Source: a virus
DNA length: 43,390 nt
Virus record (IMG/VR): IMGVR_UViG_3300014501_000029
Span: 1 to 43,390 of that record
Direction: 5' to 3' (one strand)
Part shown: positions 15,758 through 43,390 of the stretch, one piece after another
How the letters are laid out: each line of letters starts with the position of its first letter
How positions within the stretch are numbered: the stretch's first letter is position 1
Notes under the pieces: generated by a model
Database searches by the model: none
Seen by the model: only the letters and a program-made list of their open reading frames with translations
Told to the model about the DNA's origin: nothing
Position numbers and translations under genes: made by a program

Positions 15758-16339
15758 TTATTTAACAGTCGATGCCAAGGTAGAAGGAGCCGGCACCACT
15801 ACTGCTGCAGGTACACCGTTCACCGTAACCGTTGTCGAAACCGGTGCACCAGTTGCTGCCTGCATCGCCGATACTTGAGCAACGAGTGCAGTCAAGATCG
15901 GATACGCCATCGTCATCCCCAAGATAATACCAGATTTAGTCGCGGTTGGAATAGTGCTATCCTGGATGATAGTGAGGAGGGTAGGGTAGGCAGTAGAGTT
16001 GAAGGATTGGAGACTGGAGATATTAAGAGTTGTAGCGCCACTACATACCGCATTGACTTCAGGGGTAACTGGATTCTGAAGGAGTAAAGTTTCGCTGGCG
16101 TTAAGGACGCCCGGAAGTCCCAATGCGCTGATTGCAGCTTGAACAGAAGGACAGATTGAGGTTGCAAGTACAGCGGGACTAGGCAACACCGTGAGCGAAG
16201 GCAACGGAATCGGCAACTTAATAGCTGGTACCGAGGTCGTTGCAGTTACACCAGGAGTCGTCGGAGCTGCTGTCGGAAATGCACATGCACCAAGGGAGGC
16301 CACAAGAACTAAGGGGGCGATACATTTAAAGAGGTTCAT
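15758..16339 (-). CDS. Lipoprotein, proline-rich N-terminal region
   Basis: A 193-residue protein with a type II signal peptide: MNLFKCIAPLVLVASLGAC, lipobox SLGAC at about 15-19. A Pro/Thr/Val-rich stretch follows, then a helical region. The start at 16339 is preferred to an upstream in-frame ATG because it places the signal peptide correctly and avoids overlap with the preceding gene. It is expected in the outer or inner membrane leaflet. By place it could take part in lysis (an o-spanin-like role) but it is longer than usual o-spanins and shows no family match I can name. Confidence 0.7.
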   Translation of the reverse strand: MNLFKCIAPLVLVASLGACAFPTAAPTTPGVTATTSVPAIKLPIPLPSLTVLPSPAVLATSICPSVQAAISALGLPGVLNASETLLLQNPVTPEVNAVCSGATTLNISSLQSFNSTAYPTLLTIIQDSTIPTATKSGIILGMTMAYPILTALVAQVSAMQAATGAPVSTTVTVNGVPAAVVVPAPSTLASTVK

Positions 16340-16346
16340 AAATATC

Positions 16347-16757
16347 TCATTTAGGAAGTTGAACAACAGGAGTCAGTAAGGCTGTTACCGCACTTAACGT
16401 TGATACAGGTGCACTTGCTACTACGGTTGCTGGTGCGAACTGTGCGGCTGCGTTAGCACTAGCTACTACTGCTGAGGAAACTGAAGAAACACCAACGGTA
16501 GCTGCAGTGATAGACTTCGACGATACTACACCATCTTCAGTGAAGTCGACAACCATCGAACCATCAGTGGATCTCGCAATATGAGCAACCATCGACTTCA
16601 CATTCTTACCTGAGGTGACAGTTGCTTCACAACACACTTCGACCTTCGCTACTGGATCGTAGAAAGGCTTCACATCATAACGCGCTATACCTGCGTAGAG
16701 ATTAACGCAACCAGCAAGTGGAGTAACCATCAGTAAGGCTAAAGCTGAATACTTCAT
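16347..16757 (-). CDS. Lipoprotein of unknown function
   Basis: A 136-residue protein with a clear lipoprotein signal: MKYSALALLMVTPLAGC, lipobox PLAGC. The mature part has a CC pair (VEVCCEATV), a beta-rich domain, then a long Ala/Val/Ser tail. It overlaps the upstream membrane-protein gene by 4 bases (ATGA) and precedes the second lipoprotein by 7 bases, so the four genes form one translationally coupled group. A spanin or superinfection-exclusion role is possible; the sequence does not decide. Confidence 0.7.
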   Translation of the reverse strand: MKYSALALLMVTPLAGCVNLYAGIARYDVKPFYDPVAKVEVCCEATVTSGKNVKSMVAHIARSTDGSMVVDFTEDGVVSSKSITAATVGVSSVSSAVVASANAAAQFAPATVVASAPVSTLSAVTALLTPVVQLPK

Positions 16758-17065
16758 TGAGCGCCTCCCTTGGCTACAGAGTGAAGAGCAGATGCAGCGA
16801 AGTCACCAACTGCTTGCGACACTACAAGGGGAACAGCAGGTGCTACTACTTCGAGTGCTGTGGTTACGTCACGAGCAATAGTTGCTTGAGGAATAGTTGC
16901 CAGCTTCTGTTTCAGGATAGAATCCGCGAGTTCCATATCTTGTCGTGCTTTATGGATCAAGGCGTTCATCAAGGCCGGGTTCTTAATCAACATCATGCGA
17001 TTAAGAATGAAACCGAAGCCAAGACCTATGAGGAAGGATACAGGGACTATGTATTGTTGGAACAT
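16754..17065 (-). CDS. Single-pass membrane protein
   Basis: A 103-residue protein with one N-terminal membrane segment (about residues 5-25, VPVSFLIGLGFGFILNRMM) followed by a helical soluble part with basic and acidic residues (KARQDMELADSILKQK). The ATG at 17065 follows CGGAGAACCAC. This plan fits an i-spanin-like or pinholin-like protein next to lipoprotein genes, but no signature confirms either. Confidence 0.65.
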   Translation of the reverse strand: MFQQYIVPVSFLIGLGFGFILNRMMLIKNPALMNALIHKARQDMELADSILKQKLATIPQATIARDVTTALEVVAPAVPLVVSQAVGDFAASALHSVAKGGAQ

Positions 17066-17077
17066 GTGGTTCTCCGT

Positions 17078-17099
17078 GTGACTATGAAATTAAATTGGG
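17078..17099 (-). promoter_or_regulatory. Copy of recurring CCAATTTAA element
   Basis: On the minus strand it reads CCCAATTTAATTTCATAGTC, begins directly after the stop of the 111-codon gene and precedes the next start by about 12 bases. It belongs to the same set as the elements at 8893 and 42904. Its place at a gene-start boundary suggests a transcript start or processing signal. Confidence 0.35.
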
Positions 17100-17435
17100 T
17101 TAGTGGTTAATGAATCTCAGACACTCAGTTGCTGCTTCATCCGTTGCTGCATTCTTCGAGTACCATGCGTTATCGTACATAGCGTTGATGATCGACTTTA
17201 TCGTGTTCTGCATTTCAGGATCGCTAGACATAGCTACGAACTTTAAGAGCGCGGCGTCCTTATCGTGACCAGTGGAACGGTAGGTGAATACCTGACCAGT
17301 GATATCAACAATGAGGGTACAGAGTTGAGGTAGCTCTCGAGGTTGATACTTGGGAGGTATGCTAATCGTGGAAGGGGTGCCTGCTAGGGTTAGTGAGATA
17401 AGAGTAACAACAGCCAAGATCAGAACATACTTCAT
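17100..17435 (-). CDS. Secreted protein, first gene of the late arm
   Basis: A 111-residue protein with an N-terminal signal peptide (KYVLILAVVTLISLTLAG) and a periplasmic domain with two Cys (LCTLIVDITG and ECLRFINH), which could form a disulphide. The start at 17435 is preceded by GGGAGTCCTCCC. It is the first gene left of the divergent control region and heads the group of exported proteins and lipase. The function is not recognised. Confidence 0.65.
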   Translation of the reverse strand: MKYVLILAVVTLISLTLAGTPSTISIPPKYQPRELPQLCTLIVDITGQVFTYRSTGHDKDAALLKFVAMSSDPEMQNTIKSIINAMYDNAWYSKNAATDEAATECLRFINH

Positions 17436-17462
17436 GGGAGGACTCCCGTGGTGGAGAATTCC

Positions 17463-17481
17463 TGTGTATAGTGAAATTGGG
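17463..17481 (-). promoter_or_regulatory. Copy of recurring CCAATTTCAC element (leftward)
   Basis: The minus strand reads CCCAATTTCACTATACACA, about 28 bases before the start of the 111-codon gene. It mirrors the rightward copy at 17857 (CCCAATTTCACAGTGTA), so the two arms begin with the same signal in opposite directions. Confidence 0.4.
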
Positions 17482-17574
17482 ACAGAGCGAAACCTAGGAT
17501 TGGTGTAGGGGTCGCGTACTAAATATTCTGAAGTTATGGGTTACATGTAAATAATGTGTGAATGTCACAACATG

Positions 17575-17595
17575 CAATTTCAGATATATGTAAAG
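17575..17595 (+). promoter_or_regulatory. Copy of recurring CAATTT...TGTAAA element
   Basis: It reads CAATTTCAGATATATGTAAA on the plus strand within the divergent region, close to the form at 21071 (CCAATTTAAGTATATGTA). No gene starts directly after it; if functional it would give a long leader to the helicase gene. Confidence 0.3.
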
Positions 17596-17856
17596 GGTGG
17601 CGCGTACTAGACTGGTAAGGGACGGAGATGGATTCAAGGCAGATGGAACCCAATTTCTGAGGCTTCGAGGATGTTACGTTTATCATATAGAGAGAGATAC
17701 ACATAAACGAAACATGTTGTTAAATTCTGACCCTCCTAAACTTTCATAATTATCTATAGAAAGAATGTAGGCATATTTATGAAATCTTAGTTAAATTTCT
17801 CTATGAATAATCGCGTATTTCGACCTCACTCCCGTTTCTTACCCTAATTCGCGACC

Positions 17857-17876
17857 CCCAATTTCACAGTGTAGGC
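17857..17876 (+). promoter_or_regulatory. Copy of recurring CCAATTTCAC element (rightward)
   Basis: It reads CCCAATTTCACAGTGTAGGC, about 50 bases before the helicase start, and is followed by a second similar tract, ATCACTGTAAATAAG. It is the mirror image of the copy at 17463. Confidence 0.4.
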
Positions 17877-17926
17877 TAATTATGAAATCACTGTAAATAA
17901 GATACAACAATCCCTAGGAGTTACTC

Positions 17927-20311
17927 ATGAATAAGAACGCGACCCTAATGCAGATCTACAATACATCCATTCCCGTTACTCTTGGTACGCAAGAGGTCAC
18001 ACGGATTGATTACGTGAACGCTCTCCCAGGTGCGGGTAAGACGCATCAGTTCCTGAAGGCAGCGGTAAATCACGTTAAGAACAAGCAATCTAATTCCGTA
18101 CTTGTGTACGCAGCACCGACGAAGATTCTGTTAGATCAGGTTTCCACTGACCTGACGATGAAAGCTAATATCAGTAAAGACAAGATTAAGCAGATCACTG
18201 CTGAAGAGGGAACAGGTCGCGTGCAAGATCGTTTCCACGACGCACTCTTAGGTGACTTGGCAGTTGCAGACGGAACTATCCTGTTGGTTACACATGAATG
18301 TATAGCGAAGGTTCCCATGCTAATGGAAGGTAAGAGGCGTGTGACTCTGGTCTATGATGAAGCACGCGCATGTCTTCAAGATAATTACTCGTTGAATCTC
18401 CCGGAGAACGTGTATGACTTCTTTCTAAATCCGAAGTTGGCGCATGAAACCCGAGACGGCAGGAAATTCAGAGGTGCTCTGATTCAACCAGTAGTATCAA
18501 TGGAAGTTGGTGAAGGATCGCGATTAGAAGTGTGGAAGTGGCAGAATCCGGGTATTGAATTTCCTAGCCAGCAGTTCATCGAATCTCTTCTTCCCGATTC
18601 TACACAGAAGAGAACGCAAGCACAGCGCATTCATGAATTCCTAGAGAACGTGCATTCGTCCTCGATTGATGTTTATGTATCGGTCACCAAGAAGACGAAC
18701 AAGCCCTACTACGAAGTGAACAACGTATTCTCACCGACACGTATGTTCTACAGCTATGGCAAGGTATTGATCCTTTCAGCATTCTTCGATTCCTCGCAGA
18801 TGTACCACTTCCTAACTAACCCGTGCGTTGATCCTGAATTTCCGGTTAACCTGAACAGACTGAATAATTATATCGATCCGAAGCGCATGAAGAACATTAT
18901 CAATCGATTGAAGAACGTGCAACTTACATACGTGTTCGACTTCGGTGATAGGGAATTGACGAAGACGCAGATGGTAGAGGGACTAGTAGTTAAGGGTCAA
19001 CTAAATACGAAAGTTGCTAATGATCTGGCTAGTGATTGGAAAGCATCATTCGGGAAGAATCGTGTTCATACATATCGCTCGGTACAAGGTGTTCAAGAGA
19101 ATAGCGCGACTGCAATGGTGGAACAGTTCAACAATGTAGACCTCTCGAAACAATTCAAGTTGATGGACAAGTATCACTTCGAAGATATCATCAGCAACTC
19201 GTCGGTTGTTCGTTATATGGTTCAGCGTTCATTGGATCTTCAGAAGGCTTGGTTCAAGAAGAATAACTTGGCAGCAGAAGCATTGCCAATCGGTGTCAAT
19301 GCAAGTTTCCGGTCGCAGTCTAATCCCAAGGTTACACATCCGCTGTGGATCAAGGAGAACATCAACGGATTCAATAAGATGAAGAAGATGTATGAACCAG
19401 ATGCGAAGGGTAACATCATTCGTAAACTTCCGATGGTATCTCATGGTCTGAACAGGTGGAAACTGTGTCACTCTGCTGCATTCCTCGCAACCATGAAGTA
19501 CAGCCCGAACGAAACTCGATTCTTGAAATCCAGCGTTCCTTCTTATGATCCTTCGATTGATCGTACAGTTGATTATGCAATTCAAGTTCTGTTCCGTTCC
19601 AATGTTCGCATGGCAGATTCTAAAGATCCGTGTCTGTTGATCGTTACTGACAAGGCAATCGCTAATGCAATTCATAAACGGTTCCAGACGATTCTTGCTG
19701 AGAACGAATCCATGAAGGCTCGAGTTCTTAGTATCGTATCTCCCGACCTTATCATGGCGAAGTATCAGTTCGATTCGATTCTGTCGTATTCAACTCCGTA
19801 TGATAAGGAAGTGCAGAAGGCAGCGAACGGAAAGTATCAAGAGACCGACAATGGACAACTCAATCTGCAACTCAAGAAACTTTATGATAAGAGCGAACAC
19901 GGAGCACGTTATAGTTCCTTGACTACTCGTATCGGTCAGCTCAAGAAGCAGGGCGAAGACGTGAATGATCTTAAAGAAGAACGGTCTAACCTTATGTCAT
20001 TGGCACAATGGAAGAAGAGCGCAGAAGGCATAGCGACACTGAAGAAGTTGACGGCTCCTGTTAAATCGATGCAGCATAAGTTGCTGACAGTTCTCAATGA
20101 TTCACGTTTCTGGTCTGGTGATCGGGCTAAGCGACTTCCTCATGTCTTAGCGGCGAAGTGTGCGGGCATCCAACGTGAAGCTATCACGGCTTATCCTTCC
20201 GGTGATGGTCATCCGCCGATTAAGAACTGGAACGATAAGGAGTGGAAGGGGCATTGTACACCTGAGCAATTTATTCTTTCGCGTGCGAAAGCACTTAACA
20301 TTCAATTCTAA
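17927..20311 (+). CDS. SF2-like helicase/translocase, DEAR box
   Basis: A 794-residue NTP-dependent DNA or RNA enzyme. Walker A NALPGAGKT ends at 39, motif Ia VYAAPTKILLDQV is near 60-72, ILLVTHE near 118, and Walker B LVYDEARA has D144-E145-A-R in place of DEAD/DEAH. Near 550 QVLFRSNVR fits motif VI (arginine finger) and CLLIVTD follows. The region between about 180 and 540 is long and not recognised. The start follows TAGGAG. It is the first gene of the rightward arm and the only replication-type protein in the genome, so it probably opens phage DNA for the host replisome. Confidence 0.75.
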   Translation: MNKNATLMQIYNTSIPVTLGTQEVTRIDYVNALPGAGKTHQFLKAAVNHVKNKQSNSVLVYAAPTKILLDQVSTDLTMKANISKDKIKQITAEEGTGRVQDRFHDALLGDLAVADGTILLVTHECIAKVPMLMEGKRRVTLVYDEARACLQDNYSLNLPENVYDFFLNPKLAHETRDGRKFRGALIQPVVSMEVGEGSRLEVWKWQNPGIEFPSQQFIESLLPDSTQKRTQAQRIHEFLENVHSSSIDVYVSVTKKTNKPYYEVNNVFSPTRMFYSYGKVLILSAFFDSSQMYHFLTNPCVDPEFPVNLNRLNNYIDPKRMKNIINRLKNVQLTYVFDFGDRELTKTQMVEGLVVKGQLNTKVANDLASDWKASFGKNRVHTYRSVQGVQENSATAMVEQFNNVDLSKQFKLMDKYHFEDIISNSSVVRYMVQRSLDLQKAWFKKNNLAAEALPIGVNASFRSQSNPKVTHPLWIKENINGFNKMKKMYEPDAKGNIIRKLPMVSHGLNRWKLCHSAAFLATMKYSPNETRFLKSSVPSYDPSIDRTVDYAIQVLFRSNVRMADSKDPCLLIVTDKAIANAIHKRFQTILAENESMKARVLSIVSPDLIMAKYQFDSILSYSTPYDKEVQKAANGKYQETDNGQLNLQLKKLYDKSEHGARYSSLTTRIGQLKKQGEDVNDLKEERSNLMSLAQWKKSAEGIATLKKLTAPVKSMQHKLLTVLNDSRFWSGDRAKRLPHVLAAKCAGIQREAITAYPSGDGHPPIKNWNDKEWKGHCTPEQFILSRAKALNIQF

Positions 20312-20321
20312 GGAAGCAATC

Positions 20322-20642
20322 GTGATTAGCATAAAGGGAAACTATGTTAAGCCGCAGAAGAATCCTAACGACTATACTAAGGGCGTGCATAAAGTATGGG
20401 ACATGAATGATCTACATAATATTCCTACTACCGCTAGAACTATCGAAGTCATGCGGGTATTCAAGTTCTATCCAAGCTTCACTTCTCGTGGAAATATTAT
20501 GAGAGTTCGTATAATGGCCTATCAGTATCCAGAACGAGCGGAGAGACTTCGCAGAGTTGCCAAGAAGATTGCAGACCATCTGGATATACCATACGGTAAT
20601 ACCGAACGTAAAGATTTACTAACACAGATATTAGAATCATGA
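20322..20642 (+). CDS. Hypothetical basic protein after the helicase
   Basis: A 106-residue protein of unknown function. The GTG at 20322 is chosen because AAGGAAG lies 5 bases upstream; a longer open frame would lie within the helicase gene. The protein is basic, with strands (VMRVFKFYPSF...IMRVRIMAY) and a helix rich in Arg (ERAERLRRVAKKIADHL). Its stop overlaps the next start (ATGA), so the two are coupled. A nucleic acid-binding helper of the helicase is possible, inferred only from charge and position. Confidence 0.6.
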   Translation: MISIKGNYVKPQKNPNDYTKGVHKVWDMNDLHNIPTTARTIEVMRVFKFYPSFTSRGNIMRVRIMAYQYPERAERLRRVAKKIADHLDIPYGNTERKDLLTQILES

Positions 20643-20803
20643 ACCCATATAAAGAAGGTTACGATGCAGCATGGAAGTTCTGGGTTGAATGTGTAAGAGA
20701 CGACCCAGTAAATCCATACCCCAACAGGAGCATAGAAGGGGAACAGTGGGAGCAAGGGTACGAAGATTCTAGCGATGATTACGATGCGTGGGCGAATTCC
20801 TAA
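20639..20803 (+). CDS. Small RMF-like protein
   Basis: A 54-residue protein: NPYKEGYDAAWKFW at the N-terminus, then NPYPNRSIEGEQWEQGYEDS and an acidic tail. The pattern N-P-Y, then a later W-x-x-G-Y, is that of small ribosome-modulation-factor-like proteins found in many phages. The start at 20639 overlaps the previous stop by 4 bases. If it acts as RMF does, it would bind ribosomes; the family resemblance is short and the role is uncertain. Confidence 0.6.
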   Translation: MNPYKEGYDAAWKFWVECVRDDPVNPYPNRSIEGEQWEQGYEDSSDDYDAWANS

Positions 20804-20815
20804 TTGGAGAATATT

Positions 20816-21046
20816 ATGAACATGAAGCGTCTAGGCTGGCCGTGGAAATTCACGGGTGAGATCACTGAGGATACTGAGATTCAATGTCAGTACTGTAACG
20901 CATGGTCCGCCTTTAAGGAATGGGGACCTACTTCGGTAGAGTGTGAAACCTGTGGAGATCATGATGCACTAGAATGTCCGCATTGTTTCGAAGGACAGGA
21001 TCACATTCACCAACGTCCCTTCGAAACTAGGAATCCGCCAATTTAA
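20816..21046 (+). CDS. Small zinc-ribbon-like protein
   Basis: A 76-residue protein with three CxxC-type pairs: CQYCNAW near 25, CETCGDH near 45 and CPHCFEG near 57, plus nearby His residues. This should bind one or two zinc ions. The ATG at 20816 follows TTGGAGAAT; an in-frame TTG further upstream is less likely. It may regulate transcription or bind nucleic acid; no family is recognised. Confidence 0.65.
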   Translation: MNMKRLGWPWKFTGEITEDTEIQCQYCNAWSAFKEWGPTSVECETCGDHDALECPHCFEGQDHIHQRPFETRNPPI

Positions 21047-21070
21047 TCTAAAGACATAAATTCACGATTA

Positions 21071-21090
21071 CCAATTTAAGTATATGTATG
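21071..21090 (+). promoter_or_regulatory. Copy of recurring CCAATTTAA element
   Basis: It reads CCAATTTAAGTATATGTATG, followed by TAAATAC, in the gap before the 94-codon gene, about 27 bases ahead of its start. The preceding 20-base stretch has a partial copy (GCCAATTTAATC) that overlaps the stop of the zinc protein. Confidence 0.4.
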
Positions 21091-21116
21091 TAAATACTAG
21101 ATACACAAGGAGATTT

Positions 21117-21401
21117 ATGAAACACTTCGAAGGCTTCCGAATGCTTAAACAGATTTACCATACTAGCAAGTTCACAGGCGAAGTAATTGGAATTGATCGT
21201 GATCTAGAACGAGTCTACGTAGAAGCCTACGGTTCCAATGGTTCGACCTCAACCTACACAATCGATCTAGCGTTCTTTCCTAAACGGATGGAAGTTAACG
21301 AAGGTCTCAAGGTTGATGTAGAGGTAGTGATTCAGGACAAGCATTCGATCCCTGTTATGAAGATCAAGCCTCACGTTAAATCCATCAATTTAACATTGTA
21401 A
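21117..21401 (+). CDS. Hypothetical beta-rich protein
   Basis: A 94-residue protein. The ATG at 21117 is preceded by AAGGAGATTT, which decides it over the in-frame ATG at 21084. The sequence alternates strands (FTGEVIGIDRDLERVYVEAYG, LKVDVEVVIQDKHSIPVMKI), consistent with a small barrel such as an OB or S1-like fold. The end overlaps a copy of the CAATTTAACATTGTAAAC element. Nucleic acid binding is an inference from the fold guess only. Confidence 0.55.
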   Translation: MKHFEGFRMLKQIYHTSKFTGEVIGIDRDLERVYVEAYGSNGSTSTYTIDLAFFPKRMEVNEGLKVDVEVVIQDKHSIPVMKIKPHVKSINLTL

Positions 21402-21405
21402 ACAC
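21386..21405 (+). promoter_or_regulatory. Copy of recurring CAATTTAACATTGTAAAC element
   Basis: It overlaps the stop codon of the 94-codon gene. The next copy lies 33 bases downstream at 21419 with the same core ATTGTAAACA, so this is a tandem pair ahead of the 74-codon gene. Confidence 0.4.
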
Positions 21406-21418
21406 ATTATCACATTTA

Positions 21419-21438
21419 CCAATTTCACATTGTAAACA
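21419..21438 (+). promoter_or_regulatory. Copy of recurring CCAATTTCACATTGTAAAC element
   Basis: Fully intergenic, 17 bases before the ATG of the 74-codon gene. This and the 42904 copy are the closest pair from opposite arms: CCAATTTCACATTGTAAAC against CCAATTTAATATTGTAAAC. Confidence 0.45.
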
Positions 21439-21454
21439 TAAACGGAGTTACTTA

Positions 21455-21679
21455 ATGACTAAGACCCAACGTGCCACTGGTAGTATCAAGCAAGTAAAGA
21501 AGATTCAAGTCCGCGCAACCATCCCTGTTCAGGTTGCATTCGATCCTGAGTTCCACGCAGAGATGGTCGACTTCCAACATGAGAATCGTATTCCCAATAT
21601 GGCATCGCTTGTACGCCTAGCTCTCACCGCGTATATGGAATTCCCGAAGGTAGACGTTAAGAAGAAGGTGAAGAAATGA
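21455..21679 (+). CDS. Probable ribbon-helix-helix DNA-binding protein
   Basis: A 74-residue basic protein. A short strand (KKIQVRATIPVQVAF) is followed by a helix (DPEFHAEMVDFQHENR) and a second helix (MASLVRLALTAYMEF), the order and size of an RHH (Arc/MetJ-like) dimer; both termini are Lys rich. The tandem CCAATTT elements directly upstream would be natural operator candidates. The start follows CGGAGTTACTTA. It overlaps the next gene by 4 bases. An early transcription regulator is likely but unproven. Confidence 0.6.
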   Translation: MTKTQRATGSIKQVKKIQVRATIPVQVAFDPEFHAEMVDFQHENRIPNMASLVRLALTAYMEFPKVDVKKKVKK

Positions 21680-21969
21680 AGATCAAGATTCTTGTTGCTG
21701 CACTCTTCGCATGGAACATTCTGCTAACTGGTAACGCCATCGTTCTGTACCGCAGTCAGGTTGAAGTCGCAGCGAACGGACAGGAAGTAAAGGCTAATAC
21801 TAACGGTGCAGTCGCTGCTGAGAAAGAGGACTCAGCCGCCATCGATCAACTCAAGCTAGCAGTAATGATGTTGAAACATGATACCGACGAGGCCACCTCA
21901 CAGATTGGCGATATCGGACTGTTGGCATTGCAGGATCATAAGTATGTCGCTGCACACTCAGGAGACTAA
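21676..21969 (+). CDS. Small membrane-anchored protein
   Basis: A 97-residue protein with one N-terminal membrane segment (KILVAALFAWNILLTGNAIVLY) and a soluble helical part. The ATG overlaps the stop of the RHH-like gene by 4 bases. Early membrane proteins in phages may block superinfection or alter the envelope; this sequence does not show which. Confidence 0.6.
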   Translation: MKIKILVAALFAWNILLTGNAIVLYRSQVEVAANGQEVKANTNGAVAAEKEDSAAIDQLKLAVMMLKHDTDEATSQIGDIGLLALQDHKYVAAHSGD

Positions 21970-21970
21970 G

Positions 21971-22204
21971 ATGAGACATAGCAACACTGAACGTAAACAG
22001 TTGGCTACCGCTGAAGCGCTGGCAACCATCATGAAGTTCATCAAGGATCATCGTAAAGAGATCGAACGTATCGAGAGCATTACCCTTGGTTATACAATCG
22101 ATTCCAACATGAAGAAGGATCTGGCTTATCATAGAGCGCAACTTCAGATTCTGCTTTCGGCATTTAAGCTTGAGCTGGTGGGAGTCCAACATGGAGAACG
22201 ATAA
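21971..22204 (+). CDS. Hypothetical helical protein
   Basis: A 77-residue charged, helical protein (TIMKFIKDHRKEIERIESITLG, then MKKDLAYHRAQLQILLSAFKLEL). The ATG at 21971 follows GGAGACTAAG; longer in-frame reading would overlap the preceding gene by 90 bases. Its end overlaps the following gene by 14 bases. The function is unknown. Confidence 0.6.
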   Translation: MRHSNTERKQLATAEALATIMKFIKDHRKEIERIESITLGYTIDSNMKKDLAYHRAQLQILLSAFKLELVGVQHGER

Positions 22205-22760
22205 TGACTATGGTGTTTCTAATCCTAGCAATAGTGATAGCATTCCTGATAGCGAAGGTGATCGGGTTCCTGTTCAGAATCCTACTTCTACTTATGCTAG
22301 TGGCGGGAATAATGGCGTACATATCCGCCTACACACACTGGTAGACGCTAACGGTAATCGTAGCCAAGAATTCTACGGCGGTGGAGGTGGCGGGGCTAGT
22401 ATGAGCCATGAAGATACTGTAGCCAACGGTGCTCCTAGTATCGGCGGTAGTGGTAGATTCACTCCAATCAGTCCTTGGGTATCAGGCGGTGGTTCATCAG
22501 ACGACGAAGCACGACTTCATGGTGGTGGATATCCCGTTACCTACTCGGATGCTGGCACACGCGCTAAGCAACTCGAAGATGCACTTGCTGAAGTCGAGCA
22601 TTATAAACAAGCATTGGAGTATGCTGTGAACTGGCAGGCACGTGAAGTACGAACACTTGTGCACCAGAAGCTACACGATGTAGAAGGTTACGAGGTCATT
22701 AAGCGCAACAGATTGCAGCTAGATGTACTGAAGGCATTTCAACTTAAGACTAAGGAATAA
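22191..22760 (+). CDS. Hypothetical protein with Gly/Ser-rich region
   Basis: A 189-residue protein. The start at 22191 follows GGGAGTCCAAC. Residues about 1-125 are low-complexity (Ser, Asn, Gly; FYGGGGGGASMS), and residues about 127-189 form a coiled-coil-like helix (AKQLEDALAEVEHYKQALEYAV). The long disordered part is unusual for an early phage protein. There is no known domain. Confidence 0.6.
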   Translation: MENDNDYGVSNPSNSDSIPDSEGDRVPVQNPTSTYASGGNNGVHIRLHTLVDANGNRSQEFYGGGGGGASMSHEDTVANGAPSIGGSGRFTPISPWVSGGGSSDDEARLHGGGYPVTYSDAGTRAKQLEDALAEVEHYKQALEYAVNWQAREVRTLVHQKLHDVEGYEVIKRNRLQLDVLKAFQLKTKE

Positions 22761-22763
22761 ATC

Positions 22764-23033
22764 ATGAATATCACTAAAGAAGACTTGGCTACCATTGCTG
22801 AACTCCTATGCAAGTGGGATGAGGAGCCCTTAGGTTATTGGAATGATGGTAGCAAGCACGTTACCATTGGTCTCAAGGACGGCAACTGGATTGATTTCCG
22901 TAAGGATGTTGATGGTACATTCACAGTAACTGAAGGTACTGGTCGTCCTCTTATATCCGAGCTTATGATCGAAGCACGTGCCATGGGAGCTCGCGGTACC
23001 GAAGCACAACGCGCACGCTGGATCAATCAATAA
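22764..23033 (+). CDS. Hypothetical protein
   Basis: An 89-residue protein with a helix, then strands (SKHVTIGLKDGNWIDFRKDVDGTFTV) and a basic C-terminal helix. It is preceded by AAGGAATAAATC, a leader also used by the gene at 24713. It is one of a run of tightly packed small genes. I recognise no family. Confidence 0.6.
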   Translation: MNITKEDLATIAELLCKWDEEPLGYWNDGSKHVTIGLKDGNWIDFRKDVDGTFTVTEGTGRPLISELMIEARAMGARGTEAQRARWINQ

Positions 23034-23044
23034 GGAGTAACATC

Positions 23045-23260
23045 ATGAGTGAGCAACAATTCGTGGACTATCTGAAATGTGCAATTCCACCCAACTACCT
23101 AAATGAATTGGAACAACCAGCCGTTTCTGGTTTAGCACAAGGTTCAGAATTCAATGTACTTCTGTCTCGTGAAGCATTCGAATTTCTACTCACCAAGTAC
23201 CCTGAGATCCGGACCGATCTTGAGAACAAGAACATTGCGTGGACAGCGCGAAACCAATAA
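23045..23260 (+). CDS. Hypothetical protein
   Basis: A 71-residue protein beginning MSEQQFVDYLKCAIPPNYL, with a strong AAGGAGTAACATC leader. It is mainly helical with no motif. It lies between two genes of similar leader sequence and 10 bases before the coiled-coil gene. Confidence 0.55.
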   Translation: MSEQQFVDYLKCAIPPNYLNELEQPAVSGLAQGSEFNVLLSREAFEFLLTKYPEIRTDLENKNIAWTARNQ

Positions 23261-23270
23261 GGAGTGAATC

Positions 23271-24080
23271 ATGGAAGGAACAATCACAATGAGTCTCGCA
23301 GAATACGAAGAACTGGTAGGTCGTGGTCAGTGTATGGAAGGGTTCGCTGATACTATCGTGAATGTAGATATCGATTCGTTGCTCGCGCCCGAACCTACAC
23401 TAGATATGGCAGCAATTCATGCTGGCTATACCTTTCGAGAGCATATGGAAGCTGAACAACGAGAGACTGTGAACCGTATCATCAACGAGACCAATGCACC
23501 GAAGTCCAGTGGCGAGATTATAAAGATGCACAATGAGAATGTTAAGCTCCAGGCCGAACTTCACGATCTGCAACTTAGTTCGGCATCGAATGCAGACTTA
23601 GTAGTTAAGCTGGCTTTCGAGAATGAGGATCTGACATTTAAGGTGGAAGACTTGACCAAGCAGTTGGAGATCTCCAAGGAGCATCGTGCTAAGTTGGAGA
23701 ATCTTAGTGAAAGCAACCGGAAGACATCCATTAGCGCCCATTCAGAGATCATGGAATGGGAGGAGAAGATGAGTGTGGTGTATAAGGAACTTGGGGAAAT
23801 GCGGACGTCCAAGCAGTTGTCTAAACTCAAGTACGCTGCTGAGATTGAGACATTGAAGGGACAACTTGGAGCCGCTCTAGGTTGTATCGAAATCGCACGC
23901 TTTAGCGCTGCATCGATGGCTAACGAGATCGATCGCCTGAGTAAGAAGCTGGCTATCGCAGAAGGGGCTTTCGCTACATTCGGCACTGGTGGCGCAGGTA
24001 GTGACGGTAGCGGCACATCATTCCTTGGTGCAATCCCGACTGGTGGATTCGCAGGAGGCAGTGATGGACGAATCAAGTGA
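23271..24080 (+). CDS. Long coiled-coil protein
   Basis: A 269-residue protein with heptad-like helix over about residues 80-225 (NENVKLQAELHDLQLSS, FENEDLTFKVEDLTKQL, LKYAAEIETLKGQLGAAL) and a Gly/Ser-rich tail (GTGGAGSDGSGTSF). The leader is AAGGAGTGAATC. It overlaps the next gene by 17 bases. It looks like an oligomeric scaffold or a bridging factor; the function is not known. Confidence 0.6.
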   Translation: MEGTITMSLAEYEELVGRGQCMEGFADTIVNVDIDSLLAPEPTLDMAAIHAGYTFREHMEAEQRETVNRIINETNAPKSSGEIIKMHNENVKLQAELHDLQLSSASNADLVVKLAFENEDLTFKVEDLTKQLEISKEHRAKLENLSESNRKTSISAHSEIMEWEEKMSVVYKELGEMRTSKQLSKLKYAAEIETLKGQLGAALGCIEIARFSAASMANEIDRLSKKLAIAEGAFATFGTGGAGSDGSGTSFLGAIPTGGFAGGSDGRIK

Positions 24081-24318
24081 GATTTACGCATGGGCATACT
24101 GCACGGAAGAACAAGCAATGCAGAGTATCGAACGCCATATAGGTCATGAGTTGCGTCGATTGATATACGGTGCATTCTTTAAACCTACCCTCTGGACAGA
24201 CGAGTCGGCATTCAACTTCGCTCCCCAGGCGTTGATTGACATACCAGAAGAATCTCCGCATTCTAGGCAGCGATGGAATGACGAAGATGAGGATGACGAA
24301 GACGATGATTCCGATTGA
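24064..24318 (+). CDS. Acidic small protein
   Basis: An 84-residue protein. The ATG at 24064 follows AGGAGGCAGTG. It ends in a strongly acidic tail (NDEDEDDEDDDSD), a feature of DNA-mimic or protein-binding proteins such as phage anti-restriction or nucleoid inhibitors, but that is only a compositional hint. The start overlaps the previous gene, and the end overlaps the next. Confidence 0.55.
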   Translation: MDESSEIYAWAYCTEEQAMQSIERHIGHELRRLIYGAFFKPTLWTDESAFNFAPQALIDIPEESPHSRQRWNDEDEDDEDDDSD

Positions 24319-24466
24319 CGAATGTAACTTGCTTTACCTGTTGAAGATTGCTGAACGCCACTTGTCGCTCATTCTGGAAACGGGTAAACCGACAAGTGGT
24401 ACTCCTGACATAATCAAGGCGCTGCAGGACGAGTTAACCAAGGCTGAAATTAAATGGAAACTGTAA
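24305..24466 (+). CDS. Small hypothetical protein
   Basis: A 53-residue helical protein (MIPIDECNLLYLLKIAERHL...). The ATG at 24305 lies inside the last codons of the acidic gene, with no strong ribosome site of its own, so translation is probably coupled; an ATG at 24293 is an alternative. It abuts the next ATG at 24467. Confidence 0.45.
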   Translation: MIPIDECNLLYLLKIAERHLSLILETGKPTSGTPDIIKALQDELTKAEIKWKL

Positions 24467-24709
24467 ATGACTAAAGTATATGAAGATCCAGCAGTACAAG
24501 GCGCGCTCGTTAACTTCAGTGAAGTGCTGCTTCGAATGATGAAGGTAGGCGTAGACTGCAACGCCGCGAATGCTTACCAGCAGGATCTATTGCCCGACGA
24601 GTACAAGGATATCATTGCTCGCCTTGATAAGGTAAGCGCAGAGTACGAAACTTCAATCATGCTACTTCAAGAAACAATCGTAGCTTTCACTAAATCTAAC
24701 AAGGAATAA
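24467..24709 (+). CDS. Small hypothetical protein
   Basis: An 80-residue helical protein (VYEDPAVQGALVNFSEVLLRMM...). It starts on the base after the previous stop (TAAATG), so it is coupled to it. There is no recognisable domain. Confidence 0.55.
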   Translation: MTKVYEDPAVQGALVNFSEVLLRMMKVGVDCNAANAYQQDLLPDEYKDIIARLDKVSAEYETSIMLLQETIVAFTKSNKE

Positions 24710-24712
24710 ATC

Positions 24713-24979
24713 ATGACGACGTGGGCAACGATGGACACAGCACCGAAGGATCACCAGATCGTGATTCAGCACAATTCAGGAAAGCACGCAGTAGCACACT
24801 GGTATGAAGCAACAGCACAAGCATGCTGCGGATTCTACTGTATCGATGGTGATACCCTTACCCTGCTGGATAACGAAGAGCTCTGGTCAGAGCCAATCAT
24901 GGCAATTTCCGGCGGTATCAATATGGATGTAAACCGTCAGATCGTCGATGTAGCCGATCTTCAGGTCATCCCTGAATAG
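24713..24979 (+). CDS. Hypothetical protein (DUF551-like N-terminus)
   Basis: An 88-residue protein beginning TTWATMDTAPKDHQIVIQ, the W-x-x-M-D-T-A-P-K-D motif of small phage proteins of the DUF551 kind, with a CC pair (AQACCGFYC). The leader is AAGGAATAAATC. It is followed by a hairpin at 24990. The function of this family is not known. Confidence 0.6.
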   Translation: MTTWATMDTAPKDHQIVIQHNSGKHAVAHWYEATAQACCGFYCIDGDTLTLLDNEELWSEPIMAISGGINMDVNRQIVDVADLQVIPE

Positions 24980-24989
24980 TGTAGCCAGA

Positions 24990-25015
24990 GGCCCTTTCTA
25001 CTGTCAGGAAGGGCC
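24990..25015 (+). terminator. Hairpin after the first early gene run
   Basis: The arms GGCCCTTTC (24990-24998) and GGAAGGGCC (25007-25015) form a 9-bp stem with one G-T pair and an 8-base loop. No T run follows, so termination may be partial. It marks the end of the helicase-to-DUF551 run. Confidence 0.5.
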
Positions 25016-25070
25016 CGTAGCGAGTCTAAATTAGCCTTTATAGACATTTACCCATTAACGGAGATTTACC

Positions 25071-25376
25071 ATGAAGTTCTCGCAAGCAGCAATGGAAGCA
25101 ATAAAGCGGCTGGTTGACATTGATCGTAGTTCGCTGGCAATCTCAGAACGATCGAATTACGATGCAGAACACGTTATCGTAAATCGTGCAGATGTACACG
25201 AGTTGCTGCGCATCATATGGTCGCTAGGTGGGCAGAATATCGATGTAGAAACGCTGCAGGTACACGCGCAAGGTGGCGGCAATCAGCATGAAAGAGCCAT
25301 GCAGTTGGGAAACGGCACGAGTTGGACAATTCCGAATGATGCGCATAACGTCGAAATCCATGTTGATTATCGGTAA
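25071..25376 (+). CDS. Hypothetical protein
   Basis: A 101-residue protein with an N-terminal helical part (KFSQAAMEAIKRLVDID) and a short beta C-terminus. It has a strong ACGGAGATTTACC leader and stands alone between the hairpin at 24990 and the long non-coding leader. The function is not known. Confidence 0.55.
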   Translation: MKFSQAAMEAIKRLVDIDRSSLAISERSNYDAEHVIVNRADVHELLRIIWSLGGQNIDVETLQVHAQGGGNQHERAMQLGNGTSWTIPNDAHNVEIHVDYR

Positions 25377-25482
25377 GTAGCCAACAGTAGACAGATACAG
25401 AAGAATTCAGAAACCTTACAATTGTAATGCAGTAAATTTACATTGTTATATTTACACTTAACAAGTATCTGGTAAATAGTTG

Positions 25483-25511
25483 TTGACTGTAAATACAGCA
25501 TGCTTTATTAT
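25483..25511 (+). promoter_or_regulatory. Tandem promoter 1 (TTGACT-17-TATTAT)
   Basis: The -35 TTGACT at 25483-25488 and the -10 TATTAT at 25506-25511 are separated by 17 bases. Five bases later CTAGCAAG begins, which is shared with promoter 2 and fits the expected start of transcription. Confidence 0.7.
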
Positions 25512-25583
25512 TGAGTCTAGCAAGTGAGGCAAGAAGGGCAGGAAAGAAACGAGTTAATAACAAGTCTGGATAGTAAATAAGTG

Positions 25584-25612
25584 TTGACGGACAGGAGATA
25601 ACAAGTTAAACT
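25584..25612 (+). promoter_or_regulatory. Tandem promoter 2 (TTGACG-17-TAAACT)
   Basis: The same geometry as promoter 1: -35 at 25584-25589, 17 bases, -10 at 25607-25612, 5 bases, then CTAGCAAGTGAGG. The -10 is weaker. The 10 bases before it (GTAAATAAGT) resemble those before promoters 1 and 3. Confidence 0.55.
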
Positions 25613-25673
25613 AGAATCTAGCAAGTGAGGAAAGAAGTAAATAAGGTTAGAAACACTGAGATGTAAATAGTTG

Positions 25674-25702
25674 TTGACTGATAGAAACGAACAAGATAGA
25701 AT
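25674..25702 (+). promoter_or_regulatory. Tandem promoter 3 (TTGACT-17-TAGAAT)
   Basis: The -35 TTGACT at 25674-25679 and -10 TAGAAT at 25697-25702 are 17 bases apart; CTAGTAAG follows 5 bases later. It is close to consensus. It is the nearest of the three to the gene at 26024, giving a leader of about 310 bases. Confidence 0.7.
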
Positions 25703-25771
25703 GTAGTCTAGTAAGAAAGAAAGGCAGGAAACGAAATAAGTGCGGAATAACCGCGAAACACGGAAAGATTC

Positions 25772-25832
25772 AGAGAATCGACCGAGACTGTAACCCGCGA
25801 TCTTTAACAATTCGAATGATTGACGATTCTCT
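25772..25832 (+). promoter_or_regulatory. boxA-like antitermination element inside an inverted repeat
   Basis: GATCTTTAACAA at 25799-25810 differs at two positions from the rRNA operon boxA (GCTCTTTAACAA with its first base) that binds NusB-S10. It is enclosed by a perfect 9-bp inverted repeat, AGAGAATCG (25772-25780) and CGATTCTCT (25824-25832). It lies downstream of the promoters, as in rrn leaders. Confidence 0.5.
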
Positions 25833-25857
25833 AAATAAGAATTAACCCTTCCCAAGG

Positions 25858-25961
25858 TAGCCTTACTGAGTTTCACATAGCAACACTGATAGCCTTACTG
25901 AGAAATTAGCCTTACTGATAGCGGTATTGATAGCCTGACTGAGTTGGTTAGCAACATTGAG
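25858..25961 (+). repeat. Array of seven 13-bp repeats, TAGCCTTACTGA(G/T)
   Basis: Copies start at 25858, 25878, 25890, 25907, 25919, 25931 and 25949. Three are exact (TAGCCTTACTGA); the others vary in the middle (TAGCAACACTGA, TAGCGGTATTGA, TAGCCTGACTGA, TAGCAACATTGA). Spacing is 12, 17-18 or 20 bases. It sits between the boxA-like element and the ribosome site of the gene at 26024. Options are protein-binding sites on DNA (iterons or operators) or on the leader RNA. Confidence 0.7.
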
Positions 25962-26023
25962 ACTTACCGATAAACGGGGTACAGAAAGCCCCACCTACTA
26001 AACTTGGGAATTGGAGATTTACG

Positions 26024-26470
26024 ATGAAACAGAGAACGGCATACAACGGATTGGTCAAGATCGATACCAACGGCAAGCGCCTCGTAACCGATCATGCTAA
26101 ATCAATCTGGAAGGACATGGAAGTTAAAGGTCGCTTCATGTTGGTAACAGCACCGATTCACTTCAAGCCAGTATCGGGTGGGTATGTGTTGTTATTCAGT
26201 GTGTTAGATCAGATGGGACATGCGCATCAATCGAACATTATGATTGGTGACGTCAATCGAATGGTGGAAGATCAATGCCGAATTATTCGATGCAAGCCTG
26301 CAGATTTAAAGAATACGGAAGACTATAGCTGGATGTTGAATAATCTAGTCGGACGGGTCTTACGGTATTCGATACACGATAGCAGATGGATTCGGCCGGT
26401 AATGAGTCAGCCCGAACCCCTCGGATTGAATAGATTCATTGAGCAGTATAAAGACAACATTGCAGCCTAA
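26024..26470 (+). CDS. Hypothetical protein, first gene after the complex leader
   Basis: A 148-residue protein of unknown function with an alternating strand/helix pattern (GRFMLVTAPIHFKPVSGGYVLLFSVLDQ) and a Cys pair region (QCRIIRCKPAD). The leader is TTGGAGATTTACG. As first gene of the run driven by the three tandem promoters it is likely to be made early and in quantity. It could be a regulator of its own leader; nothing in the sequence proves that. Confidence 0.6.
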   Translation: MKQRTAYNGLVKIDTNGKRLVTDHAKSIWKDMEVKGRFMLVTAPIHFKPVSGGYVLLFSVLDQMGHAHQSNIMIGDVNRMVEDQCRIIRCKPADLKNTEDYSWMLNNLVGRVLRYSIHDSRWIRPVMSQPEPLGLNRFIEQYKDNIAA

Positions 26471-26499
26471 CTTAAACTTGGAAATTGGAGATTTACATC

Positions 26500-26802
26500 A
26501 TGAAGAGCTTTCGCAATCACGCCGCATTCTCGAAACTTAAAGCCCACGTTGCTCAGCAGATCAAGGCGCAAGTTGAGGCCGCAGTAAATGAAATCGCTGA
26601 GGAGTTGGTCAACAGTCTGGATGAGGCAGTGACGGAATCAATCGATGGAGTGCTTGTAGACGACACGTTTCAAGAATCCGAAGTTAATGTTCAGGATATC
26701 CCCGCGCTTCACATTCATACGGGAAAGGTTGAGGCTTTACATACGACAGCGCCGATGATGCCCCTCGAAACGATGTTAGCTCATATGAAGAGCGTATCAT
26801 GA
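26500..26802 (+). CDS. Hypothetical helical acidic protein
   Basis: A 100-residue protein with a long N-terminal helix (KLKAHVAQQIKAQVEAAV) and an acidic middle. The ATG at 26500 follows ATTGGAGATTTACATC, the same leader as the gene at 27342. Its stop overlaps the HNH start (ATGA). Confidence 0.6.
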   Translation: MKSFRNHAAFSKLKAHVAQQIKAQVEAAVNEIAEELVNSLDEAVTESIDGVLVDDTFQESEVNVQDIPALHIHTGKVEALHTTAPMMPLETMLAHMKSVS

Positions 26803-27326
26803 AAGCTAAAGCGTTACCCTCAGTGGAATATCTCAGAGAGTGTTTCACTTACAATCCGAAGACCGGTAGTTTAAAGTGGAAGGTGAGACCACAATATCAC
26901 TTCGCAACGGTGGCCGGGTGTAATCAGAGTAATTCAAGATTCGCTGGTAAGCTTGCAGGTCCGACAACGGTTAGTATATCCGGCGAATTCTATAAGGGTC
27001 ATCGAATCGCATGGGCACTTTATTACGGTGAAGATCCGGGAGATATATTGCTGGATCATAAAGATCTTAACGATCAGAATAATCGGATTAAGAATCTTCG
27101 AAAGGCAACCTCTAGTCAGAATATGTGCAATACTCACGCACAATCCAACAGTAAGTCAGGAGTTAAAGGAGTGTGCTGGGCTGCGCGGGAAGGTAAGTGG
27201 CTGGCGCAGGTTAATATAAATGGCAAGAAAGCCTTATTCCAGATGTTCCCTAACTTGGAAGATGCCGTCAAGGCCGTAGAGAGGACTCGTAACAGGGTTC
27301 ATAAAGAATTCGCTAATCACGCATAA
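26799..27326 (+). CDS. HNH endonuclease with AP2-type DNA-binding domain
   Basis: A 175-residue homing-type endonuclease. Residues about 1-30 are the usual N-terminal motif (LRECFTYNPKTGSLKWK), the HNH core spans about 66-105 (GHRIAWALYYG, then LLDHKDLNDQNNRIKNLR, with DH at 86-87 and the N-x-x-x-N pattern), and an AP2-like domain follows from about 118 (GVKGVCWAAREGKWLAQVNI). It would nick DNA and spread itself; it is not within another gene. It is coupled to the upstream gene by a 4-base overlap and is a mobile-gene candidate. Confidence 0.85.
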   Translation: MKAKALPSVEYLRECFTYNPKTGSLKWKVRPQYHFATVAGCNQSNSRFAGKLAGPTTVSISGEFYKGHRIAWALYYGEDPGDILLDHKDLNDQNNRIKNLRKATSSQNMCNTHAQSNSKSGVKGVCWAAREGKWLAQVNINGKKALFQMFPNLEDAVKAVERTRNRVHKEFANHA

Positions 27327-27341
27327 TTGGAGATTTACATC

Positions 27342-27869
27342 ATGACCGAAATTCAAGAATTGAATATGCAAGTAGCACAACTGAAATCATATCTGGTTAC
27401 ACTAGCGGAGCATCAGATCCATGACCAAGCGCGACTTGCAAGCCTTGAAGCGAAGAATGCAGGACTTGTCGAAACGATTGGGAAGCAACAAGCCGAGCTC
27501 CAAGCGATCCGGGAAGGCGTGGACGCAGACAAGATGATGCAAGGTAACATGAATTCGATGCTGTGGGATTATACGAATGATGTATCGATGGCCTTTCACG
27601 CACAGCAGGATGAACAGTGGGTGGAAAGCGATGCGAAGTTGGACACGGCTTTAAACTTCACCGTAGCAGAGGAAATGAAGAAAGCGCTCATGGTTGAGGC
27701 AGAGGCAGAGGGTGTTTCGATCGGAGCGGTAGTTCGTCAGTGTGTGGTAAAGGCCCGGCCGAAGTTGCAGCAACATGCGGGACCTCGCAGTAAGACATGT
27801 AACGGTAAATCGAAGTTTAGTGGTGTATCGCTGGATGACTTAGTGTTGCTGCCACCAGAACGAGTGTAA
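27342..27869 (+). CDS. Coiled coil with probable ribbon-helix-helix domain
   Basis: A 175-residue protein. Residues about 3-65 form a coiled coil (MQVAQLKSYLVTLAEHQ, LEAKNAGLVETIGKQQ). Residues about 108-142 look like an RHH unit: a strand LNFTV, then helices AEEMKKALMVEAEAEG and SIGAVVRQCVVKA. The tail is basic then hydrophobic. This arrangement would give a multimeric DNA-binding regulator. The leader is ATTGGAGATTTACATC. I infer an early gene regulator; the operator is unknown. Confidence 0.6.
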   Translation: MTEIQELNMQVAQLKSYLVTLAEHQIHDQARLASLEAKNAGLVETIGKQQAELQAIREGVDADKMMQGNMNSMLWDYTNDVSMAFHAQQDEQWVESDAKLDTALNFTVAEEMKKALMVEAEAEGVSIGAVVRQCVVKARPKLQQHAGPRSKTCNGKSKFSGVSLDDLVLLPPERV

Positions 27870-28027: not shown

Positions 28028-28057
28028 GGGTGAATTCTGAATCAATAGAATTCACCC
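28028..28057. terminator. Shared hairpin between the convergent arms
   Basis: A perfect 11-bp stem (GGGTGAATTCT at 28028-28038, AGAATTCACCC at 28047-28057) with an 8-base loop lies between the last plus-strand gene and the last minus-strand gene. It has no long T run on either side (TGTCTGCTTT on the plus strand), so it is probably a bidirectional, perhaps partial, terminator. Confidence 0.65.
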
Positions 28058-42352: not shown

Positions 42353-42877
42353 TTACCGACCGCGTTGGTTGTTGAGGTTACGCTTCGACTGGAAGCCTTC
42401 CTTGGCGACACTGATAGTTTCTTCACGGCGATCGCTTTCCGACTTCAGCATATTGACGTCACGAACTTCAACCGACAGTTCAAGCAACTTACGATCCGAT
42501 GATTCTTGTTGTTGATCGATGGTATTAGAAACGGATGCAGCGTTCGTCTTGCGATCTTCGAAAGCGATCAAGTCACGAGCTTCACCGTTCTGTTGAGTCA
42601 GTGCGCTAATGTTATCGAGCTCTACCGCACGATCCAAGTGATACGTCAATGCGATATAGGTACCACGTTGAGTACGCAGCGCTTCTTCTTGCGTAACGAA
42701 ACCATAGTGTTGATGTTGCTGAATGATGTAGTCAATCTGAGCATCATTCAGATTAGTAGGAAGCATTGCTTGGTCTGCTGGACGAATGGTAACCCGTTGA
42801 ACCTTGGGGTTCTCCATTGTGTGATAGCAGAATTGTTGTACTTGCTTGGTGTTGTTAATGACGTACAGACGCGACAT
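42353..42877 (-). CDS. Hypothetical helical virion-cluster protein
   Basis: A 174-residue protein, with an N-terminal strand (SRLYVINNTKQVQQFCYH), AMLPTNLNDAQIDYIIQQH near 40, and a long charged helical second half (DQQQESSDRKLLELSVEV). No family is recognised. The leader is CTGGAGAGATTTACC. A copy of the CCAATTTAATATTGTAAAC element lies 27 bases upstream. Confidence 0.6.
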   Translation of the reverse strand: MSRLYVINNTKQVQQFCYHTMENPKVQRVTIRPADQAMLPTNLNDAQIDYIIQQHQHYGFVTQEEALRTQRGTYIALTYHLDRAVELDNISALTQQNGEARDLIAFEDRKTNAASVSNTIDQQQESSDRKLLELSVEVRDVNMLKSESDRREETISVAKEGFQSKRNLNNQRGR

Positions 42878-42903
42878 GGTAAATCTCTCCAGGGGTTTAA
42901 TTG

Positions 42904-42922
42904 GTTTACAATATTAAATTGG
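42904..42922 (-). promoter_or_regulatory. Copy of recurring CCAATTTAATATTGTAAAC element
   Basis: The minus strand reads CCAATTTAATATTGTAAAC, starting 1 base after the stop of the gp53-like gene and 27 bases before the next start. It is the closest late-arm match to the early copy at 21419. Confidence 0.45.
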
Positions 42923-42923
42923 C

Positions 42924-43390
42924 TTAACGCCCAATTGCGAAACAGGAAATCATCATGGTTACGGCCTGACGTGCATCGGCTCCACCACGTGCTTCTTTCT
43001 TATTCCAGAAGGGACCCTCCGTTGCACCATGACCGATAGACGCTAAGGACCCAACATAATTAGCAGGGAGAGCCCATGCTATGGCGCAACAGTCTGTGAA
43101 CTCTTTAGGGAACGTCCACACGAATGGCGTGGTAACTCCACCAGAAGCAACATCCACCTTGATGGTTTCCCATTGCAGCATGAAGCCCGTCTCTTCATCT
43201 ATGTAGTGACCGGGATTCTCTGCTAGGAAGGAATTAGCCTTACGTGCGAGGACAGTTGGATTAGGTAGTACTTGAACCAACTGGGGCTTCTGTACTACCG
43301 GAACAACTGGAGCAGGGGCTACTACACTAGGGGCAGGAACTTCAACCAGCGTATGAATCTCACGAACTTCCGTTGTATGAATTTCCGTAA
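42924..43390 (-). CDS. 3' part of the gp53-like virion protein gene
   Basis: This continues the gene whose 5' part lies at 1-202; the bases 43268-43390 repeat 1-123. The complete product has 181 residues. The C-terminal domain (GFMLQWETIKVDVASGGVTT, then FPKEFTDCCAIAWALP and ending MMISCFAIGR) has the plan of the gp53-like fibre-tip domain: LQWG-type strand, FP-x-x-F, and a final AIG strand. It could be a small receptor-binding or decoration protein. Certainty is moderate because the match is short. Confidence 0.65.
   Translation of the reverse strand, partial: TEIHTTEVREIHTLVEVPAPSVVAPAPVVPVVQKPQLVQVLPNPTVLARKANSFLAENPGHYIDEETGFMLQWETIKVDVASGGVTTPFVWTFPKEFTDCCAIAWALPANYVGSLASIGHGATEGPFWNKKEARGGADARQAVTMMISCFAIGR
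43268..43390. repeat. Terminal direct repeat, right copy
   Basis: Identical to bases 1-123. Merging the two copies gives a circle of 43,267 bp and restores the reading frame of the gp53-like gene with no change. Confidence 0.95.

Follow-up and report, generated by a model that had tools for sequence, protein, structure and literature searches.

A small myovirus carries three promoter units of fixed geometry, followed by a boxA-like element and then by a set of genes in the same orientation; these features can be read directly from the DNA. Our preferred explanation, to which we give about an even chance, is that one transcript, driven by a sigma70-type promoter present in three copies, runs through a boxA leader protected by host Nus factors. 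On this explanation, positions 25472-25727 would hold one sigma70-type promoter module copied three times in a row, and host RNA polymerase would start at the A of each CTAG. The three promoters would feed a single rightward transcript, probably an early one, with an untranslated leader of 300-500 nt, which would run into the genes at 26024-27869 and end near a hairpin at 28028. Rho attacks long untranslated RNA. By analogy with rRNA operons, host NusB and NusE would bind the boxA at 25799 and the polymerase would then resist Rho. The arrangement suggests that the phage may drive a small gene set in a manner taken over from rRNA operons. The idea of strong early transcription, put forward in the first-pass annotation, is compatible with a leader of this kind.

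Several observations were counted in favour of this explanation, among them the position of the array and the kind of hexamers. The promoter array sits in a 647-bp gap (25377-26023) and points into a co-directional operon of four rightward genes; a coding role for the gap was ruled out, as its plus strand holds no open reading frame of at least 30 amino acids. The promoter hexamers resemble those of host sigma70, and no RNA polymerase gene was recognised among the window proteins scanned. Only four small genes lie downstream, and why the phage would need antitermination for them is not evident.

Genome context

The window, by which we mean the whole stretch of DNA analysed, is one IMG/VR record of 43,390 bases and of myovirus type. 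Comparison of its ends showed that positions 1-123 are identical to 43268-43390, and because of this 123-bp terminal repeat the record probably represents a whole genome of ~43.27 kb, circular or terminally redundant. Rightward genes occupy 17927-27869, and the remainder consists of leftward structural genes that cross the record ends. For the capsid, portal, terminase and baseplate proteins, identity is 37-51% to the counterparts in Shewanella phage QDWS, Yersinia phage vB_YenM_29.18, Pantoea phage PdC23 and one viral contig, wherever the gene is present there, and the capsid protein is 48% identical to that of Klebsiella phage Chronis. The capsid protein was found in 14 phage records, 13 with gammaproteobacterial hosts and one with a Tenericutes host. 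The record labelled Tenericutes (OP650936.1) matches Shewanella phage QDWS in length (47,902) and in capsid identity; the two are possibly the same phage, and the host label doubtful.

Apart from the HNH gene and a distant match to a DEAD helicase, no relatives of the rightward block were found in the collections searched, where two of the searches with early proteins covered 48 of the 81 structural-gene relatives in viral_contigs. Comparison with phage and plasmid nucleotide sequences gave no match to the window. Searches of viral_contigs by exact DNA pattern returned no relative of the promoter unit or of the block downstream of it, and no relative in the collections searched holds the promoter-boxA module.

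Two other regions were noted. On the minus strand at 15758-17435, four small leftward genes lie ahead of the packaging genes; their signal-peptide, lipoprotein or membrane-like starts, judged by eye, suggest a lysis cassette. The 491-bp divergent gap at 17436-17926, between leftward and rightward genes, contains inverted repeats together with recurring GGGTCGCGTACTA-like words and is a candidate control region or origin.

Three promoter units of one design

The first-pass annotation had described three promoters of the form TTGAC-17-TAnnnT-5-CTAG, separated by 101 and 90 bp. Both the geometry and the spacings proved exact, with sites at 25483, 25584 and 25674 on the plus strand. Unit P1 (25472-25536) consists of GTAAATAGTTG, a -35 hexamer TTGACT (25483-25488), 17 bp, a -10 hexamer TATTAT (25506-25511), 5 bp and CTAGCAAGTGAGG. 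Unit P2 (25573-25637) has GTAAATAAGTG, TTGACG (25584-25589), 17 bp, TAAACT (25607-25612), 5 bp and again CTAGCAAGTGAGG, and unit P3 (25663-25727) has GTAAATAGTTG, TTGACT (25674-25679), 17 bp, TAGAAT (25697-25702), 5 bp and CTAGTAAG. The predicted starts are the A of each CTAG, at 25519, 25620 and 25710 respectively. The three units have the columns GTAAATA..TGTTGAC, TA...T and TCTAG.AAG in common. The downstream flank, which had also been described as repeated, is exact in P1 and P2 (CTAGCAAGTGAGG), while in P3 the likeness is weaker and partial (CTAGTAAGAAAGA).

The pattern TTGAC-17-TAnnnT has three matches on both strands of the whole window, all in the array at 25483-25712, and GTAAATANNTGTTGAC, allowed up to three mismatches, likewise gave three matches, each of them exact. 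All three units have the near-consensus hexamers at 16-18 bp spacing of a sigma70-type promoter, matching the consensus at 10/12 (P1), 9/12 (P2) and 10/12 (P3) positions with a 17-bp spacer; a minus-strand site elsewhere in the window matches better (11/12). A loose promoter pattern with 16-18 bp spacing occurs four times in the window against 4.67 expected. Because this frequency is at chance level, a single promoter-like site proves nothing; what carries weight is that one non-coding gap has three such sites, all on the same strand and with flanks that repeat, not any single hexamer pair. About 0.01 sites are expected per 192 bp on one strand, and the Poisson probability of three is ~2e-7, a figure obtained by arithmetic from the loose-pattern rate for a region picked post hoc.

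Over 64 bp the three pairs of units are identical at 43, 40 and 43 positions, whereas no self-match in 60 shuffled versions of the region exceeded 37/64. With the hexamers removed, identity is 35, 30 and 34 of 52. These identities and the conserved CTAG block bear out the proposal that the repeat is a duplicated promoter-like module, including bases around and past the presumed start. Selection, for a very strong or buffered early transcript, had been suggested as well, and here the pairs differ. Between P1 and P2 the upstream and CTAG blocks are conserved and identity in the 17-bp spacer is close to chance (6/17; Fisher p 0.0006), and the same is true of P1 and P3 (5/17; p 0.0014). Between P2 and P3 the spacer is also similar (11/17), and there is no contrast of flank with spacer (p 0.33). 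Since the flanks outmatch the spacer in two of the pairs, they are likely to be under selection, with retained function rather than only a fresh copy; P2 and P3 may be the younger copy. With flanks conserved and spacers drifting in two of the three comparisons, the three units offer natural variants of one promoter class, in which the roles of GTAAATA and CTAG could be gauged.

A boxA-like element in the leader

The first-pass annotation did not mention a boxA-like element, GATCTTTAACAATT, at 25799-25812 on the plus strand in the leader of the array, and its presence, with that of the TAGC repeats described below, changes the likeliest meaning of the region. The element matches 13 of 14 positions of the E. 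coli rrnB boxA and 10 of 11 positions of GYTCTTTAANA, given as the gammaproteobacterial boxA consensus in the part of the source consulted (PMC5725501). It lies on the sense strand of a presumed leader, as an rrn-type boxA does, and departs from the strict consensus at position 2, where it has A and the consensus has Y. Among the 12 rrn leaders read, namely E. coli and 11 plasmid-borne operons from 60 rows of 381 records, only Acinetobacter has A at this position.

A matrix was built from nine gamma- and betaproteobacterial leaders, four of them identical; three alphaproteobacterial leaders, none with a full gamma/beta-type boxA, were excluded. GATCTTTAACAATT scored 20.4 of 22.3 bits, and the runner-up on either strand of the window scored 13.8, or 6.6 bits lower. 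One Acinetobacter site, itself within the matrix, scored 10.5 bits, below the phage site. None of 3000 shuffled leaders reached 20.4 bits. In 1,718,331 bases of other viral loci (all but the window itself, L001, and L086-L098 and L133) there was no match as good as GATCTTTAACAATT and one of at least 18 bits. When the matrix was calibrated on a lambdoid relative (L004), the top sites were one just past cro, at 17.0 bits, and one on the leftward side, at 14.7 bits, and on a stretch of lambda nutL ranked first (11.4 bits).

The sole match of at least 18 bits lies in Shewanella phage QDWS (L003), in a 594-nt early leader at 42485-43078, where a terminator, a TTGACA promoter-like site and a GC hairpin, read by eye, precede it; the TTGACA site was not listed by a strict promoter scan. 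This long leader with a strong boxA resembles an rrn leader. For relatives L005, L134 and L135, in a comparison that left out L136, the best matrix matches (14.2-14.6 bits) fell outside the early leaders, which means that not every member of the group has a strong boxA. A 20-mer spanning the element had one match in genome_contigs, in Bdellovibrio, which is about the number expected by chance and was rejected as a hint of the host.

Phage boxA elements are known mainly where phage N remodels the Nus complex. No boxB with a GNRNA loop was found after the boxA here, just a weak CAAUU-CGAAU-GAUUG hairpin that overlaps it, and boxC (GTGTGGG) is absent from the leader after 25812. The window has 18 arginine-rich reading frames, none a plausible gene by eye, although a diverged N could escape such a reading. 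A near-perfect rrn boxA lacking boxB or a recognised N would offer a natural test of host-only antitermination in viruses. One elaboration, which we put forward tentatively and regard as rather unlikely in its full form, is an rrn-like start with multiplied host promoters and boxA, where host Nus factors alone would give Rho resistance in the absence of phage N and the TAGC-N5-TGA array described below would add a signal of the phage's own, in RNA or DNA.

The main alternative, which we consider unlikely, is that these are simply early promoters in tandem, as in T7 A1-A3, whose combined effect is strong early transcription, with the boxA-like word a coincidence and the repeated start a leftover of duplication. 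The promoter geometry and position would fit, T7 having A1, A2 and A3 at 498, 626 and 750, and the spacer likeness of P2 and P3 is what a fresh duplication would leave. This alternative does not account well for a boxA match that far exceeds both shuffles and other viral DNA, nor for the retention of flanks but not spacer in P1/P2 and P1/P3. The T7 units, moreover, are identical at 22-24 of 64 positions when aligned on the annotated starts (27 at best shift) as against the 40-43 found here.

TAGC repeats

Seven copies of TAGCNNNANTGA occupy 103 bp of the leader on the plus strand, at 25858-25960, with start-to-start distances of 20, 12, 17, 12, 12 and 18; they too are absent from the first-pass annotation. 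Genes outside the array contain eight sense copies of the array motif, against 0.75 expected from synonymous-codon shuffling, where none of 300 shuffles reached eight, and a mean of 0.85 over 400 letter permutations of the motif, again with none reaching eight. The form TAGC-N5-TGA, often TAGCCTTACTGA, has 14 sense copies in genes, compared with 0-7 when the gap is set to any other length between 0 and 11. These copies lie mostly at 15.7-27.4 kb (for example at 15721, 16741, 20031 and 21979), and three stand head to tail at 22226-22261. TAGC-N5-TGA looks like a real, unexplained feature of the phage. A 16-mer of the array gave 34 single matches in viral_contigs, which were set aside as chance because none came with an array or an early-gene relative.

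The repeats bear on a second alternative, a regulated switch, in which GTAAATANNTG and TCTAG would be sites for a phage regulator on all three promoters and the TAGC array a second site, in DNA or RNA. Conserved blocks do reach beyond the hexamers, the enrichment of TAGC-N5-TGA on the gene sense strand could reflect such a site, and proteins with a possible, weakly predicted ribbon-helix-helix are encoded at 21455 and 27342. The candidate sites are not clean palindromes, however, and no repressor or lysogeny gene was recognised among the window proteins scanned; we regard a switch as improbable.

Leader and downstream genes

The first 243 nt from the first presumed start (25518-25760, plus strand) are 72% purine and 10% C, a purine content reached by 2 of 4315 genome windows. 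Rho favours C-rich RNA, and because this part of the leader is C-poor and purine-rich, Rho would be expected to bind it poorly. Inverted repeat arms of 13 nt at 25768-25780 and 25824-25836, 92% complementary, flank the boxA-like element. Folding of the leader RNA was ordinary compared with shuffles (z -1.17), and Rfam gave no match. A replication origin, with the tandem promoters making primer RNA or an R-loop and the TAGC copies as iterons, would suit a leader whose purine content ranks with the highest in the genome and a direct-repeat array adjoining promoters, but is very improbable given repeat distances that are not helix-phased, a cumulative GC skew minimum at ~13 kb rather than at the array (though the skew here tracks gene direction) and no recognised initiator.

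In the preferred explanation, the Nus-protected leader would deliver polymerase to four plus-strand genes. The first (26024-26470), with ribosome site GGAGATTTAC, encodes a 148-residue protein of no known family, for which the AlphaFold model (pLDDT 43) was too low in confidence for use. The second (26500-26802) has its ATG at 26500 after GGAGATTTACATC and is listed from a TTG at 26485. The third (26799-27326) encodes an HNH endonuclease (phrog_99, E 1e-55). The fourth (27342-27869), listed from a TTG at 27327, encodes a coiled coil and, by a weak prediction, a possible ribbon-helix-helix. A terminator-like 12-bp hairpin on the plus strand at 28028-28057 lies where the rightward and leftward gene blocks converge. 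The extended ribosome-binding word GGAGATTTAC precedes several genes (for example at 25060, 26013, 26487 and 27329), and the ribosome-binding 10-mer has seven copies in the window.

Comparison with known systems

In open-access papers, seen mainly as titles and the beginnings of abstracts, we found no phage with a multiplied promoter and an rrn-type boxA. The rrn operons of E. coli resemble the phage in having tandem sigma70 promoters and then boxA in a long untranslated leader; in rrnB these elements are named P1, P2, boxB, boxA and boxC. The phage has three near-identical promoters where E. coli rrn has two unlike ones, and its boxA lies ~90 nt past the last presumed start, as against ~32 nt for rrnB by the same reckoning. 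It has no clear boxB, and phage genes rather than rRNA follow. As boxC is absent, we do not class the region as an rrn leader.

Lambda nut and the N-dependent phages share with the window a boxA, predicted here, in the early leader of a tailed phage. Unlike lambda nut, the window has no GC hairpin of boxB type behind its boxA and no convincing arginine-rich gene for an N-like protein, and for these reasons it is not classed as a lambda-type nut site; the nutL boxA scores 11.4 bits by the same matrix, against 20.4 for the phage element. According to the portion of the source consulted, N-dependent phages include the non-lambdoid mEp group (PMC11893012).

The early promoters of phage T5 carry a conserved ATATT discriminator next to the -10 (PMC7472727, consulted in part). 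T5 is thus like the window in that a promoter class of one phage is marked by a conserved sequence; the mark lies in the discriminator in T5, and at the start (CTAG) and upstream of the -35 (GTAAATA) in the window. The closest promoter arrangement is that of T7 A1-A3, three promoters for host polymerase in tandem at ~100-130 bp ahead of small genes. The T7 promoters stand at a genome end, unlike the array described here, and their flanks are not repeated, whereas in this phage the flanks recur with each promoter.
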